Positions 23,547 to 28,616 of a stretch of 64,000 nucleotides of DNA are shown here, piece after piece. The DNA is from an uncultured Clostridia bacterium. Lineage in GTDB: Bacteria; Bacillota; Clostridia; Lachnospirales; CAG-274. The stretch lies in assembly GCA_947630475.1 (NCBI GenBank), contig CANRHR010000004.1, positions 62,001 to 126,000 on the forward strand, given 5' to 3'. Within the stretch, counting starts at the first letter, position 1. Each line of letters starts with the position of its first letter. The translations under genes were made by a program, and so were the position numbers. The notes beneath the pieces were generated by a model that was given only the letters and a program-made list of their open reading frames with translations, did no database searches and was not told the DNA's origin.

Positions 23547-24422
23547 ATGAAAAGAATGATTGCATTTTTATTAAGCTCGGTTTTGGCGATAAGCCTTGCG
23601 GGCTGTAATCAATCGGAACAAAATTCCGCTGAAACGGCAAGCTCTGTTCAAAAATTTAAGGAAAATACCGTAAATGAAAACGAGGTTGACTATTCGCAGG
23701 AGTTTGGGCAAATAAAAGGCTGCTGTGTATTTTATGATGCATCAATGAACAGTTATAATTTTTATAACAAAGCAGACTGCAAAACAAGGTATTCGCCAAA
23801 TTCTATTTTTAAGATAATATCAACACTTGAAGGTTTGGAATGTGGCGCTGTAACCTCCGAAACATCAACTATGAATTACAATGGAAATATATATCCTTTT
23901 GAAAGCTGGAATACAAATCTTAATTTAAAAGAGGCTTTTCAAAATTCATGTGTATGGTATTACAGACAGCTTATAGATAAAATAGGCAAAGAAACAATGA
24001 AAAAAGGGCTTGAAGAAATAGGCTATGGCAATTGCGATATAAGCCAATGGAATGGCAGCGGACTTAACCCAATGGAAGATACTAACGGTTTTTGGCTTGG
24101 CTCGTCGCTTGAAATTTCTCCGTTGGAAGCGGTAAACGTAACAAGCAAAATTTTTGAAGGCAAAAGCAGATACAGTAAAGAAAATATTGATATACTTAAA
24201 AATATTATGAAAAGCGATACTAAAGGAATTTACGGAAAAACGGGTACAGGTATGGATAACAGCGCATGGTATGCGGGCTTTTATGAAAAAGAAAATGACA
24301 AAATTTATTTTGCGCTGCATTTGCAAAACGGTGACGGAATAAAAATAGCGGGTGCGGACGCAAAGAAAATTGCTGTATCCATTATAGAAAAACACTATAT
24401 GCAGGAGGAATATTATGAATAA
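23547..24422 (+). CDS. Class D (OXA-type) beta-lactamase, lipoprotein
   Basis: A 291-residue serine beta-lactamase. A lipoprotein signal with lipobox LAGC (Cys20) predicts membrane anchoring outside the cell. Class D motifs are present: SIFK (86-89) with the nucleophile Ser and the carbamylatable Lys, SCV (134-136), and KTGTG (from 231). The YGN-type element is at YGNCD. It is related to the sensor domain of the BlaR1-like protein two genes on. Start supported by GGGAG. First gene of a bla-blaI-blaR1 operon, an arrangement I recall from the C. difficile CDD enzymes. Resistance spectrum cannot be predicted. Confidence 0.9.
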   Translation: MKRMIAFLLSSVLAISLAGCNQSEQNSAETASSVQKFKENTVNENEVDYSQEFGQIKGCCVFYDASMNSYNFYNKADCKTRYSPNSIFKIISTLEGLECGAVTSETSTMNYNGNIYPFESWNTNLNLKEAFQNSCVWYYRQLIDKIGKETMKKGLEEIGYGNCDISQWNGSGLNPMEDTNGFWLGSSLEISPLEAVNVTSKIFEGKSRYSKENIDILKNIMKSDTKGIYGKTGTGMDNSAWYAGFYEKENDKIYFALHLQNGDGIKIAGADAKKIAVSIIEKHYMQEEYYE

Positions 24423-24783
24423 TTCAGCGCAGATTTCAGAGGCGGAATATGAGATAATGTGTGTTATTTGGGATAAATATCCCATAAATACCAACGAAAT
24501 AACGAAAATAGTTTTAAAGTCAAGCAATTGGAATAAAAGAACTATACACACGCTTATATCAAGACTTGATAAAAAAGGCATAATTTCACATGAACAAGTA
24601 GGCAAGCTTTATTATTATACGCCCATTGTGAAGAAAGAAGATTATATAAAGGCCGAAAGCAAGTCATTTCTAAAAAAGTTTTATGACGGAACAATAAAAA
24701 GCATGGTAATGAACCTTATTGAGAATGATATGATTACAGATGATGAACTTACAGAATTGAGAAATATGCTGAATAAAAGGTGA
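24415..24783 (+). CDS. blaI: BlaI/MecI-family repressor
   Basis: A 122-residue winged-helix repressor. The N-terminal domain has the family pattern ISEAEYEIMCVIWDKYPINTNEI and the recognition region WNKRTIHTLISRLDKKGII. The C-terminal part forms the dimer domain that BlaR1 signalling inactivates by cleavage. It starts 8 nt inside the end of the beta-lactamase gene, with AGGAGG upstream, so the two are coupled. The two TACAnnTGTA operators ahead of the operon are its likely sites, giving autoregulation. Confidence 0.95.
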   Translation: MNNSAQISEAEYEIMCVIWDKYPINTNEITKIVLKSSNWNKRTIHTLISRLDKKGIISHEQVGKLYYYTPIVKKEDYIKAESKSFLKKFYDGTIKSMVMNLIENDMITDDELTELRNMLNKR

Positions 24784-24789
24784 TAAATT

Positions 24790-26442
24790 GTGAATATGTA
24801 TAATATTTTGATATGCAATATAATTCTCTCTTTATCGGCAATTATAATTATAAGCCTTAAAAATTTATTCGGAAAGTTTATTTCGGCAAGATGCAATTAT
24901 TATATAGGATTTTTATTGATTTTTATTCTTATTGTGCCTATGGTGCCCAAAATCGGCATATTGCAGAATATATGTTATGATAATATGGAGAACATAACAA
25001 AAAGCCCAAAATTTTTTAATATTGACAACTTTGAAAGCAACAATAAAGATTTTTATATTTCAGTAAATAAGGATTACACTGTTTCTTTTATTATTATCAG
25101 TGTTATGCTGATGAGAATTTTGATATTGAAAATATCGGAAATACGGCTTCGTAAGTACACAGAAAGCAGAATATACAGCGAAGAATTTAATAAATACTGC
25201 TCTGTTTTGAAAGTTAATGCGCAATTATATAAAAGCAAAAGTATAAATTCTCCAATATCTTTCGGAATAATAAAAAAATATGTTATTATCCCCGACAGAA
25301 AGCTTAAGAAAAAAGAATTTGAAATTGCTGTGCTGCACGAATTAACACACCATAAGCATAATGATATATTAATAAACTATATATTATGTATTTTAAATGC
25401 AGTGTATTGGTTTAATCCTTTTGTTTATATGCTAATCCAAAATATAAGGCTTGGAATGGAAATATACTGTGATTATTCTGTAATACAGCAAATAAACAAT
25501 AATATAGAATATGGCAATATAATACTTAATTTTGCAGCTGATAACAAAAAATACGGAGCTGCTGATTGTATAAGCGGAAATGGCAAACATTTAAGGAGCA
25601 GAATAAATAAAATAATTGAATATGGCGATGAATATTCAAAAAAAGTTTCAAGGGCTGTTATGGCATTTTTTATTTGTATAACTATTTTGACAGCTATATG
25701 TATAAATTCTTTTGGGTATGCTTTTGAATATAACCATATAAACATACCGGCAGCAGAAATTGATTTGGATAATTTCTTTAATGGCGCCAAAGGCACTTTT
25801 GTATTGTATAATCAAAACAGCAATGAATATATGATTTATAATAAAAAGCTGGCATACAAAAGGGTTTCGCCTGATTCCACATTTAAAATTCCGTTGGCAT
25901 TAAAGGGATTGGAGGAAAACATTATAACCGCAAATGATAATAAAATGTTTTGGAACGGAGCTGAAAATCCTTTTTCGCAATGGAATAAAAACCAAAACTT
26001 AAACTCTGCAATGAAGTATAGCGTAAATTGGTATTTTCAAGAAATTGACAATAAACTCGATAAATCTGAAATAATAAATTATTTGAAATATATTGATTAT
26101 GGAAATAAAAATGTTTACGGCAATAAAGACTACTGGCTTGAAAATTCTCTTAAAATTTCTCCTGTTGAACAAATAATATTCTTAAAAGGATTTATAAATA
26201 ATATTTATAATTTTGAAGAAGAAAACATAAATACGGTTATGAAAGCTATAAAATTGGACAATGGCTTATACGGCAAAACAGGAACCGGAATGATTAACGG
26301 AAAAATAAACAGCGGTTGGTTTATTGGCATAGCCGAAAGAGGCAATAATAAATATATATTTGCAACAAGGCTTGAAAACGCCGATGGTTTAGCGGCAAGG
26401 GACATAACGGTAAATATATTGAAATTCATAATTGATAATTAA
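24790..26442 (+). CDS. blaR1: BlaR1-type sensor-transducer (M56 protease + class D sensor domain)
   Basis: A 550-residue membrane receptor. About four transmembrane helices (near 5-27, 37-56, 96-116, 288-308) surround a cytoplasmic zinc protease with HELTH (183-187) and the EIYCD ligand Glu near 224. The extracellular C-terminal domain is a penicillin-binding class D fold: STFK (363-366), SVN (411-413), KTGTG (496-500). Acylation of the Ser by a beta-lactam should activate the protease and relieve BlaI repression. I chose the GTG at 24790, 6 nt after AAAAGGTG; the ATG at 24796 is the alternative. The ribosome site lies in the end of blaI. Confidence 0.94.
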   Translation: MNMYNILICNIILSLSAIIIISLKNLFGKFISARCNYYIGFLLIFILIVPMVPKIGILQNICYDNMENITKSPKFFNIDNFESNNKDFYISVNKDYTVSFIIISVMLMRILILKISEIRLRKYTESRIYSEEFNKYCSVLKVNAQLYKSKSINSPISFGIIKKYVIIPDRKLKKKEFEIAVLHELTHHKHNDILINYILCILNAVYWFNPFVYMLIQNIRLGMEIYCDYSVIQQINNNIEYGNIILNFAADNKKYGAADCISGNGKHLRSRINKIIEYGDEYSKKVSRAVMAFFICITILTAICINSFGYAFEYNHINIPAAEIDLDNFFNGAKGTFVLYNQNSNEYMIYNKKLAYKRVSPDSTFKIPLALKGLEENIITANDNKMFWNGAENPFSQWNKNQNLNSAMKYSVNWYFQEIDNKLDKSEIINYLKYIDYGNKNVYGNKDYWLENSLKISPVEQIIFLKGFINNIYNFEEENINTVMKAIKLDNGLYGKTGTGMINGKINSGWFIGIAERGNNKYIFATRLENADGLAARDITVNILKFIIDN

Positions 26443-26783: not shown

Positions 26784-28616
26784 ATGAAAAACATAATAAC
26801 AGTGGACGAGAAGATGTGTTCCGGATGCAATGCCTGCATAAGAGCCTGTCCTATACTTAACGCAAATAAGGTAACAAACTACGATGGCAAGATTGTAGTT
26901 TCAAATGTTGATGTTGATAAATGCATAGCCTGCGGAAACTGTGTTAAGGAATGTCATCATGGCGCAAGAAAATATATAGACGATACGGAAACTGTCATGA
27001 AAAATATTTCCGATTATGCCTTTATTGTCGCTCCCGCTGCATTGATAAGCTTGAAAAATAAAGGCAAAAATTTGCTCAATTATCTTAGAAAAAAAGGAGC
27101 AAAGGGAATTTATGACGTTAGCTTTGGCGCTGAAATTACAACTTGGATGTATTATCAGTATCTTAAAGAAAATCCATCAATAAAAACAATAAGTTCCCCT
27201 TGTCCTGCTGTTGTAAGTTTCATTGAAAAACATACTCCCGAACTCATACCTAATCTTTGCCCCATACATAGTCCAATGCTGTGCCTTGCAATATATCTTA
27301 GAAAGTATTTGGGATACAAAGGAAAAATTGCCGCAATAAGCCCATGTACAGCAAAATCTGCAGAGTTTGAAGATACGGGCTATATTGTAAATGCAAATGT
27401 TACCATATCGCATATTAAAGAAATGTTTAAAGATAACCCAATTCCCGATTATAACGAAGATTTTGCCTTTGACGATATAGAGGGAATAGACGGAAGAATG
27501 TATCCTATTCCCGGAGGAATAAAAGACTGCTTAAAGAGAATAGATCCGTCGCTTAGCATTATAGAGATATCAAGCAGAGAAAAAGCATACCCGATTTTAT
27601 ATAAATATGTCGAAACCCCCGACAGCAGCAGACCTCGCGTGCTTGATATTTTAAATTGCGATTATGGCTGTATTTCCGGCGTAGGCTTAAAAAATGACTT
27701 TAATATAATAGAGATATACAATAATCTTGAAAATCAGATAAAAGATAAAAAAACAGATTATTCTTATATGGAAAAGCTTAATCCAAAGGATTTTTACAGA
27801 ACATACCATAATCTGCATATAGATAAGCTTAAGGCAAGTGAAGCTGATATTGAGCACGCTTATGATCTTATGCATAAGAAAACCTTCCATGAGCGTACTT
27901 TCGATTGCGGAGCGTGCGGATATAAATCTTGTCATGAAATGGCGATTGCTATAGCAAACGGTCTTAACGTTGCCGAAAACTGTCATCAGTATGCTTCTGT
28001 TGAAGTTCGTGAAGCAAACAAAAGGATACAAGATGTAACAAAAGCTATAAAAGATACTTTCTTTAACATGAGCAGCGAGCTTCAAAAGTCTATCAAGATA
28101 TCAGAGGAGAATAAAGCATATTCTTCACACGGAAGCGAAAAAATAAAGATGATAAAAACAAGCATAACTACGCTCAATAATTCATGCAAAGATATTGAAA
28201 ATACCCTAAGTTCAATAAAGCAGACGCTTAAGTCATTTAAAAATATGACCTCTACGATAGAGAGCGTTGCAAGGCAGACAAATATCCTTTCGCTTAATGC
28301 CTCGATAGAAGCGGCAAGGGCGGGCGTAGCCGGCAAGGGCTTTGCCGTTGTTGCCGATGAAGTAAGAACCCTTTCGGCAAAAACAAAGCTTACGACAACC
28401 GATATAGAAGCTTCAACCGACAGCTTGGAGGAAATCGTTATAACATCAGACAGAAATATAGAAAAAATTAATGAGGAATTGAGCGAATTTGAAAATTCTA
28501 TAAGCGAAGTTTCAAAATCCATTGAAAATACAAATTATACCTCAGATGAAATAAACAAAATTATTGTCGAAATTATAAATCTTGCCGATGAAGTGGCGGC
28601 AAACTTAAACCTTTAA
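26784..28616 (+). CDS. Sensory [FeFe]-hydrogenase fused to a chemoreceptor signalling domain
   Basis: A 610-residue soluble fusion. Residues 12-22 and 47-57 carry two CxxCxxCxxxC [4Fe-4S] ferredoxin motifs. Residues ~75-320 are an [FeFe]-hydrogenase H-domain with the H-cluster cysteines at 140 (SSPCPAVV), 188 (SPCTAKSAE), 292 and 296 (NCDYGC). The Cys that relays protons in catalytic enzymes (TSCCP) is Pro here, as expected for a sensor. A small CGACGYKSC Fe-S domain (375-400) follows, then coiled coil and a methyl-accepting domain with the classic tip (about 495-535, [17 protein letters not shown]). No membrane helix. Predicted cytosolic hydrogen or redox receptor coupling to CheA/CheW, which are not in the window. 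Confidence 0.93.

Follow-up and report, generated by a model that had tools for sequence, protein, structure and literature searches.

An open reading frame in a 64,000-nucleotide stretch of DNA from an uncultured Clostridia bacterium (the window, meaning the whole stretch that was analysed) encodes a soluble chemoreceptor whose input domain has the features of a group-D-type [FeFe]-hydrogenase. In our judgement the protein is most likely an H2 or redox receptor that carries an H-cluster and biases swimming through CheA, a reading to which we give a probability of about 0.5. The fusion itself, intact H-cluster ligands, a receptor tip, and the co-presence in the genome of a Che system, flagellins and H-cluster maturases are established.

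A hydrogenase-type module and a chemoreceptor in one polypeptide

The fusion gene begins with ATG and encodes 610 amino acids in a single open frame with no internal stop; the reverse strand of the same interval (26784-28616) is rich in stops. Its features are listed below, with equivalent residues given in CpI numbering.

26784..28616, + strand: hydrogenase-chemoreceptor fusion gene, 610 aa (ORF, Pfam, relatives, AlphaFold2 model)
26796..26966, + strand: N-terminal two-cluster ferredoxin domain, residues 5-61, Cys12/15/18/22/47/50/53/57 (Pfam Fer4_10)
27024..27680, + strand: H-domain Fe_hyd_lg_C, residues 81-299 (Pfam 93.8 bits, cut-off 22.1; CbA5H fold match)
27192..27206, + strand: L1 motif SSPCP, with Pro139 at the proton-relay Cys299 position and ligand Cys140 (C300) (alignment, 111 relatives)
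27336..27365, + strand: L2 motif of ten residues, with Ser186 (M353), ligand Cys188 (C355), Lys191 (K358) and Glu194 (E361) (alignment, 111 relatives)
27651..27671, + strand: L3 motif LNCDYGC, with Leu290 (M497) and ligands Cys292 and Cys296 (C499, C503) (alignment of relatives)
27906..27983, + strand: C-terminal 4Fe-4S site Cx2Cx4Cx16C, residues 375-400 (PF04060)
27984..28607, + strand: antiparallel coiled-coil chemoreceptor signalling hairpin, residues 401-608 (PF00015 and AlphaFold2 helices)
28281..28355, + strand: receptor tip, residues 500-524, with invariant N505, A506, E509, A513, G514, G517, F520 and A524 (46 rows)

Besides the H-domain, three Pfam matches exceeded their curated cut-offs: Fer4_10 (residues 5-57, 35.6 bits), the PF04060 FeS domain (residues 374-400, 30.3 bits, with Cys375-378-383-400) and MCPsignal, PF00015 (residues 469-605, 90.0 bits against a cut-off of 34.6). 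The four H-cluster ligands lie in the contexts SSPCP (Cys140), SPCTAKSAE (Cys188) and NCDYGC (Cys292 and Cys296). None of the 12 Pfam families matching at E <= 0.001 is PAS, and a scan of the window protein showed that no hydrophobic stretch ahead of the tip reaches 17 residues, so that no membrane segment was found. These results bear out a preliminary description made from the sequence alone, which had read here one soluble polypeptide joining a hydrogenase-type sensor to a chemoreceptor output, with two N-terminal ferredoxin clusters, an H-cluster domain with four ligand cysteines, an extra cluster domain behind it and Pro in place of the proton-relay Cys. The same description spoke of a full methyl-accepting tip, of which the signalling tip stands, with its MCPsignal match and conserved residues, whereas no methylation sites were recognised on inspection of the window protein by eye. 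We take residues 500-524 to be the CheA/CheW contact region from what is known of the family.

An AlphaFold2 model built from the 46-row alignment (mean pLDDT 84.5, pTM 0.70) predicts helices at 401-442, 447-512, 514-581 and 587-608. The first helix of the hairpin is thus modelled to begin at residue 401, directly after the last FeS cysteine, Cys400. Residues 2-344 of the model superpose on the CbA5H hydrogenase (8zqd) with Z 35.8 and rmsd 2.6 over 335 residues, and the fold search gave a Z of about 32 against CpI; the 50 entries listed by this search included no Nar1/CIAO3 structure, which excludes nothing. Fe_hyd_lg_C and MCPsignal share one chain in 46/46 aligned relatives, the receptor-type ones picked from 111 that were read, and the fusion is therefore no chance composite. 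A further cysteine, Cys167 (27282-27284), belongs to none of the known ligand sets; it lies two residues past the CpI Gln325 position and is kept in 108/111 relatives.

The active site follows the group D pattern

The window protein has Pro139 in place of Cys299, Ser186 in place of Met353 and Leu290 in place of Met497. In the literature, group C TmHydS has Ser/Gly at Met497/Met353 and group D TamHydS has Leu/Ser, Cys299 is lost in both, and Ser or Thr for Met353 is typical of group D (PMC8163306; this and all other papers are cited from excerpts). By comparison with these residues, the active site of the window protein fits the group D (M2e, TamHydS) pattern. The likeness extends to the architecture, since TamHydS of Thermoanaerobacter mathranii and the window protein both have two N-terminal 4Fe-4S sites, an H-domain, the C-terminal Cx2Cx4Cx16C site and no PAS domain (PMC8163306, PMC13104023). 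TamHydS also resembles the window protein at these active-site positions, in that Cys299 is not kept, Met353 is changed to Ser and Met497 to Leu (PMC8163306). As described in these excerpts, TamHydS ends in a C-terminal helix without an output domain, whereas the corresponding helix of the window protein is predicted to extend into the chemoreceptor hairpin.

Group C (M2f) proteins such as TmHydS, R. albus HydS and HfsB share the cluster layout up to Cx2Cx4Cx16C but differ in having Met353 replaced by Gly and a PAS domain after the C-terminal cluster, which the window protein lacks. A separate homologue in the same genome, L003, combines Gly at the Met353 position with PAS and so has the group C pattern. 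The assignment of the window protein to group C in the preliminary description is thus better replaced by group D, on active-site letters and PAS absence; the earlier label follows HydDB, in which the [FeFe] enzymes fall into three groups (PMC9431212).

The architecture itself is already known as a putative class, as that description had recognised. HydDB lists group C2 as "Chemotactic (putative)", with methyl-accepting chemotaxis proteins as the putative means of H2 sensing (PMC5037454), and the window protein, with its H-domain linked to a chemoreceptor, resembles C2 as matched by class description. An acetogen survey discarded its C2 matches on an H-domain motif check (PMC9431212); the window protein carries that motif in altered form.

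The host genome holds Che proteins, flagellins and maturases

The host genome (G000; 2.18 Mb, 48 contigs, 99.6% complete) contains the window as positions 62001-126000 of contig 4. It encodes five Fe_hyd_lg_C proteins (L001-L005), the product of the window gene being L005. The group A enzyme L001 has intact TSCCPGW, IPCTAKKFE and MACPGGC motifs and adjoins a HydB-like frame (by eye). On contig 11, the group B-like L002 and the PAS-carrying L003 (570 aa) flank a SpoIIE-like phosphatase frame (by eye), a row that resembles hfsB-hfsC-hfsD (PMC11837493). Another hydrogenase-chemoreceptor fusion, the 640-aa L004 (contig 23, 511-2430, reverse strand), shares 41% identity with the window protein across the H part.

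CheA, CheW and a CheB-like frame (by eye) lie on contig 8, and a CheV-like protein (by eye) and another CheW that carries a zinc-binding domain are found elsewhere in the genome, which also has 11 MCP-domain and 8 flagellin-domain matches. HydE (574.2 bits), HydF (580.9 bits) and HydG (943.9 bits) all exceed their cut-offs. The preliminary description had proposed a cytosolic receptor that feeds into chemotaxis, and had counted a genome lacking both CheA/CheW and HydEFG as grounds against it; the finding of both systems and of flagellar genes, together with the soluble architecture, supports a cytosolic receptor acting on CheA/CheW. The hydrogenotaxis that the description went on to suggest is a putative role. 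In the CheW-like L009 (901-1737, reverse strand) the CheW match runs only to residue 78, and residues 90-153 form a CZB zinc-binding domain, which may be inserted into CheW, the downstream part resembling the second half of CheW by eye.

Soluble cytoplasmic chemoreceptors and the redox receptor Aer have a hairpin with a CheA/CheW tip and a redox or energy input. The window protein has the features of a cytoplasmic chemoreceptor, namely an MCPsignal match over cut-off, a conserved tip, no membrane segment found, and CheA and CheW in the genome; in the input position it carries an H-domain and Fe-S clusters, where Aer has a PAS-FAD domain. No recognisable hydrogen-metabolism genes lie beside the window gene. 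Just upstream (23547-26442) there is a row consisting of a class D beta-lactamase-like gene (172.8 bits to bla_class_D_main, cut-off 250), a BlaI-like repressor and a BlaR1-family sensor (432.5 bits, cut-off 400).

One conserved module serves several outputs

The first 409 residues were used to search 295 genomes of the same order, and matches at E <= 1e-20 were found in 157 of them. At E <= 1e-50 there were 117 places, of which we read 111 from 71 genomes; the six places not read lie one each in G117, G002, G082, G072, G253 and G234. All 111 relatives retain 13 of the 16 cluster cysteines, namely the eight of the N-terminal clusters, the four of the H-cluster and one of the C-terminal site, whose four cysteines are kept in 111, 110, 109 and 107. 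The other active-site positions are likewise conserved, with Lys358 in 107/111, Glu361 in 111/111, Ser or Thr at Met353 in 110/111, Pro at Cys299 in 107/111 and Leu at the Leu290 (Met497) position in 102/109. Pro139 and Lys191 are both lost in the two GGDEF-type members, L128 and L133 (Val/His and Ser/Arg).

Although the branch of the window copy is long (1.29 against a median of 0.17 in the tree), it departs from consensus only once in 47 near-invariant columns of the H part. We considered that this copy might be diverging toward loss while L004 does the work, a view that draws on the long branch and on the 41% identity to L004. An open frame, all 16 cysteines and the single departure speak against it, and we regard it as extremely unlikely.

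What follows the FeS site varies. Among the 111 proteins read, 73 have a chemoreceptor output, 23 a histidine kinase, two a GGDEF domain and seven a tip-less coiled coil, and three end in nothing; the remaining three, truncated at contig ends, are not assigned to any output class, and five reads were reassigned by eye. Six output changes are needed on a tree of 108 family members with L003 as the outgroup (109 rows in total). This switching of one module among receptor, histidine-kinase and GGDEF outputs indicates sensor-like behaviour, and it argues against an active H2-metabolising enzyme for which the receptor tail is minor. Such an enzyme would be in keeping with the intact fold and ligands and with the low activity of TamHydS (PMC8163306). 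The replacement of the proton-relay Cys by Pro and the restriction of tip loss to genomes without CheW count further against it, and we hold this explanation to be very unlikely.

CheW was present in 59/59 genomes with a receptor-type member compared with 138/236 others (295 genomes; counts ignore kinship). The seven tip-less members come from seven genomes, all without CheW, and they represent one event because they form one clade in the tree. Since CheW accompanies every receptor-type genome and the tip-less members fall in CheW-less genomes, the receptor tip is linked to the Che system, a conclusion to be taken cautiously in view of the single loss. Four Ruminococcus flavefaciens records, FD-1 included, share the tip-less tail type (by eye, among the 80 loci listed below).

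Measured between the last FeS cysteine and the tip Glu, the spacing occupies four of the seven heptad classes, with 38, 19, 12 and 4 of 73 proteins. This clustering would be compatible with a continuous coiled coil and carries little weight, since related sequences are not independent. Two receptor-type fusions, L031 and L135, stand side by side in G126 (contig 4, 52835-56128).

The family is widespread, as a scan of species genomes gave at least 583 relatives among at least 593 matching stretches. The 80 relatives listed are mostly from Lachnospiraceae and Oscillospiraceae, and a few are in records named Fibrimonadales/Fibrimonadaceae, Chitinispirillia, Desulfarculales and Cloacimonadota.

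The family is not associated with H-cluster maturases

Maturases were scored at E <= 1e-60 for HydF and HydG and at the family cut-off for HydE; the weak HydE-like matches in G018 and G019 (1.6e-65, 2.4e-31) were counted as absent, and split genes could escape detection, HydG/HydF being fragmented in G082 and G092. HydE or HydF was found in 40/72 genomes with the family and 124/223 without it, and both were missing from 32/72 and 99/223, respectively. Across the 295 genomes the presence of the family is thus unassociated with H-cluster maturases (counts ignore kinship). A plain Fe-S or redox sensor is therefore a live alternative. In such a receptor the four H-domain cysteines would hold a 4Fe-4S cluster only, with no [2Fe] subsite, and the hydrogenase fold would be a scaffold; the protein would inform CheA of redox potential, of O2/NO damage or of iron status. 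We regard this alternative as possible, short of probable.

Several findings favour it. Among the 59 genomes with a receptor-type member, 25 encode the complete set of HydE, HydF and HydG and 29 lack all three; these 29 span 10 families of the order, and 15 of them are at least 95% complete. Ligands and active-site residues are alike whether or not the genome bears maturases, in a comparison of two sets of 49 and 60 proteins that omits the two whose genomes have a single maturase, so the active-site letters are independent of maturases. In five genomes a family member is the sole Fe_hyd_lg_C protein; G284 has HydE and HydF, and G040, G125, G199 and G265 have no maturase, G199 and G040 being 99% and 96% complete. 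Nar1/CIAO3, which retain four cysteines without a [2Fe] site, offer a precedent. Additionally, TamHydS is obtainable as an apo-protein that contains four 4Fe-4S clusters (PMC8163306).

Other findings weigh against a receptor without the [2Fe] subsite. The host genome has HydE, HydF and HydG, Lys358 and Glu361 are kept at the frequencies given above, and some kin adjoin maturase genes. The GGDEF-type member L128 of G004 lies directly upstream of hydE-hydG-hydF, a tip-less member of G160 lies directly upstream of hydF-hydE, and receptor-type members of G049, G059 and G090 (one family) are about 6-8 kb from hydE. HydG also adjoins a receptor-like member in Candidatus Fibrimonadales (L224). This was the only one of the 80 loci listed with HydG nearby, and HydB, HydF, CheA and CheW were near none; when the same loci were probed with HydA, group B and HydS, the matches listed were all to the H-domain itself.

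As a control, group A-like proteins of maturase-less genomes were read, and four ligands are kept in 22/38. Because such four-ligand proteins also occur in maturase-less genomes, missing maturases are not readable as a missing H-cluster. Group A-like [FeFe]-hydrogenases in genomes without detectable HydE, HydF or HydG include that of L141, which comes from a single-contig genome (G045). Ser at the Cys300 ligand (TSCSPGW) occurs in 25/59 of the group A-like proteins read. We considered this Ser as a sign that maturase-less genomes lose their H-clusters, and dropped the idea at 16/38 proteins without HydE/HydF against 9/21 with them.

Strong group A-type matches, found in at least 143 genomes, are themselves weakly tied to maturases (present in 90/143 genomes with such a match compared with 74/152 others). 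Twenty-one genomes have no Fe_hyd_lg_C protein, and only one of the 20 listed has a maturase, which argues that the maturase calls are not noise.

A proposed route from cluster to flagellar motor

For the H-cluster-bearing receptor that we prefer, we propose the following sequence of events. The H-domain would carry an H-cluster in its HydEFG-bearing host cell, and H2 or reduced ferredoxin, the presumed stimulus, would alter the redox state of the cluster chain. This change may shift the FeS domain, whose last cysteine abuts the first hairpin helix in the model, and a movement of that helix would relay the change to the tip. The tip would then control CheA through CheW, so that swimming is biased by H2 or redox state. 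One-chain anatomy, cysteine conservation, the tie to Che, the host maturases and kin adjoining maturase genes are evidence for this receptor. The evidence against it comprises the family's independence of maturases, the 29/59 receptor-type genomes that have none, the four of five sole-H-domain genomes that likewise lack them, and the missing H2-gene neighbours.

TamHydS serves as a group D precedent that in part favours this receptor. TamHydS binds an H-cluster and turns over H2 (PMC8163306), with raised H2 affinity, low activity and a stabilised reduced state (PMC8163306, PMC13104023). H2 alters its secondary structure without needing reduction of the C-terminal cluster, which keeps its redox state under H2 (PMC13104023), a result that counts against the cluster-chain route proposed here. 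An AlphaFold dimer of TamHydS is parallel along the C-terminal helix, an interface that its authors rate as doubtful (PMC13104023). It is plausible from our model that the counterpart of this helix continues as the receptor coiled coil and forms the signal path.

Transcripts of R. albus HydA2 drop 90-fold when a partner organism removes H2, and the authors tentatively invoke HydS (PMC10838669). This result supports H2 sensing by the group C cousin and not by the window protein.

Implications for hydrogen sensing in gut Clostridia

The literature searched yielded no experimental study of the hydrogenase-chemoreceptor class or of a hydrogenase-type receptor's signal to the flagellar motor, in agreement with the preliminary description, which had called this biology scarcely studied. 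Nor did we find described there the group D active site, the swapping of outputs on one module, the CheW tie or the absent maturase tie. For group D, the route from cluster to signal has been posed as a question (PMC8163306). The fusion joins its C-terminal cluster, by a helix that is continuous in the model, to a well-understood output for which an in-vitro kinase assay exists, and these two properties would make the question testable.

More broadly, a large share of the proteins classed as "sensory [FeFe]-hydrogenases" in gut Clostridia might be maturase-independent Fe-S receptors that never hold an H-cluster, forming a modular redox sensor for chemoreceptor, histidine-kinase and GGDEF outputs. 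We consider this generalisation doubtful. If it is true, the counts of H2 sensors drawn from hydrogenase databases are too high; under the same facts, there may instead be another route of H-cluster assembly that is not yet recognised. For gut and rumen surveys, the mismatch with maturases puts in question the practice of scoring these proteins as H2 sensors.
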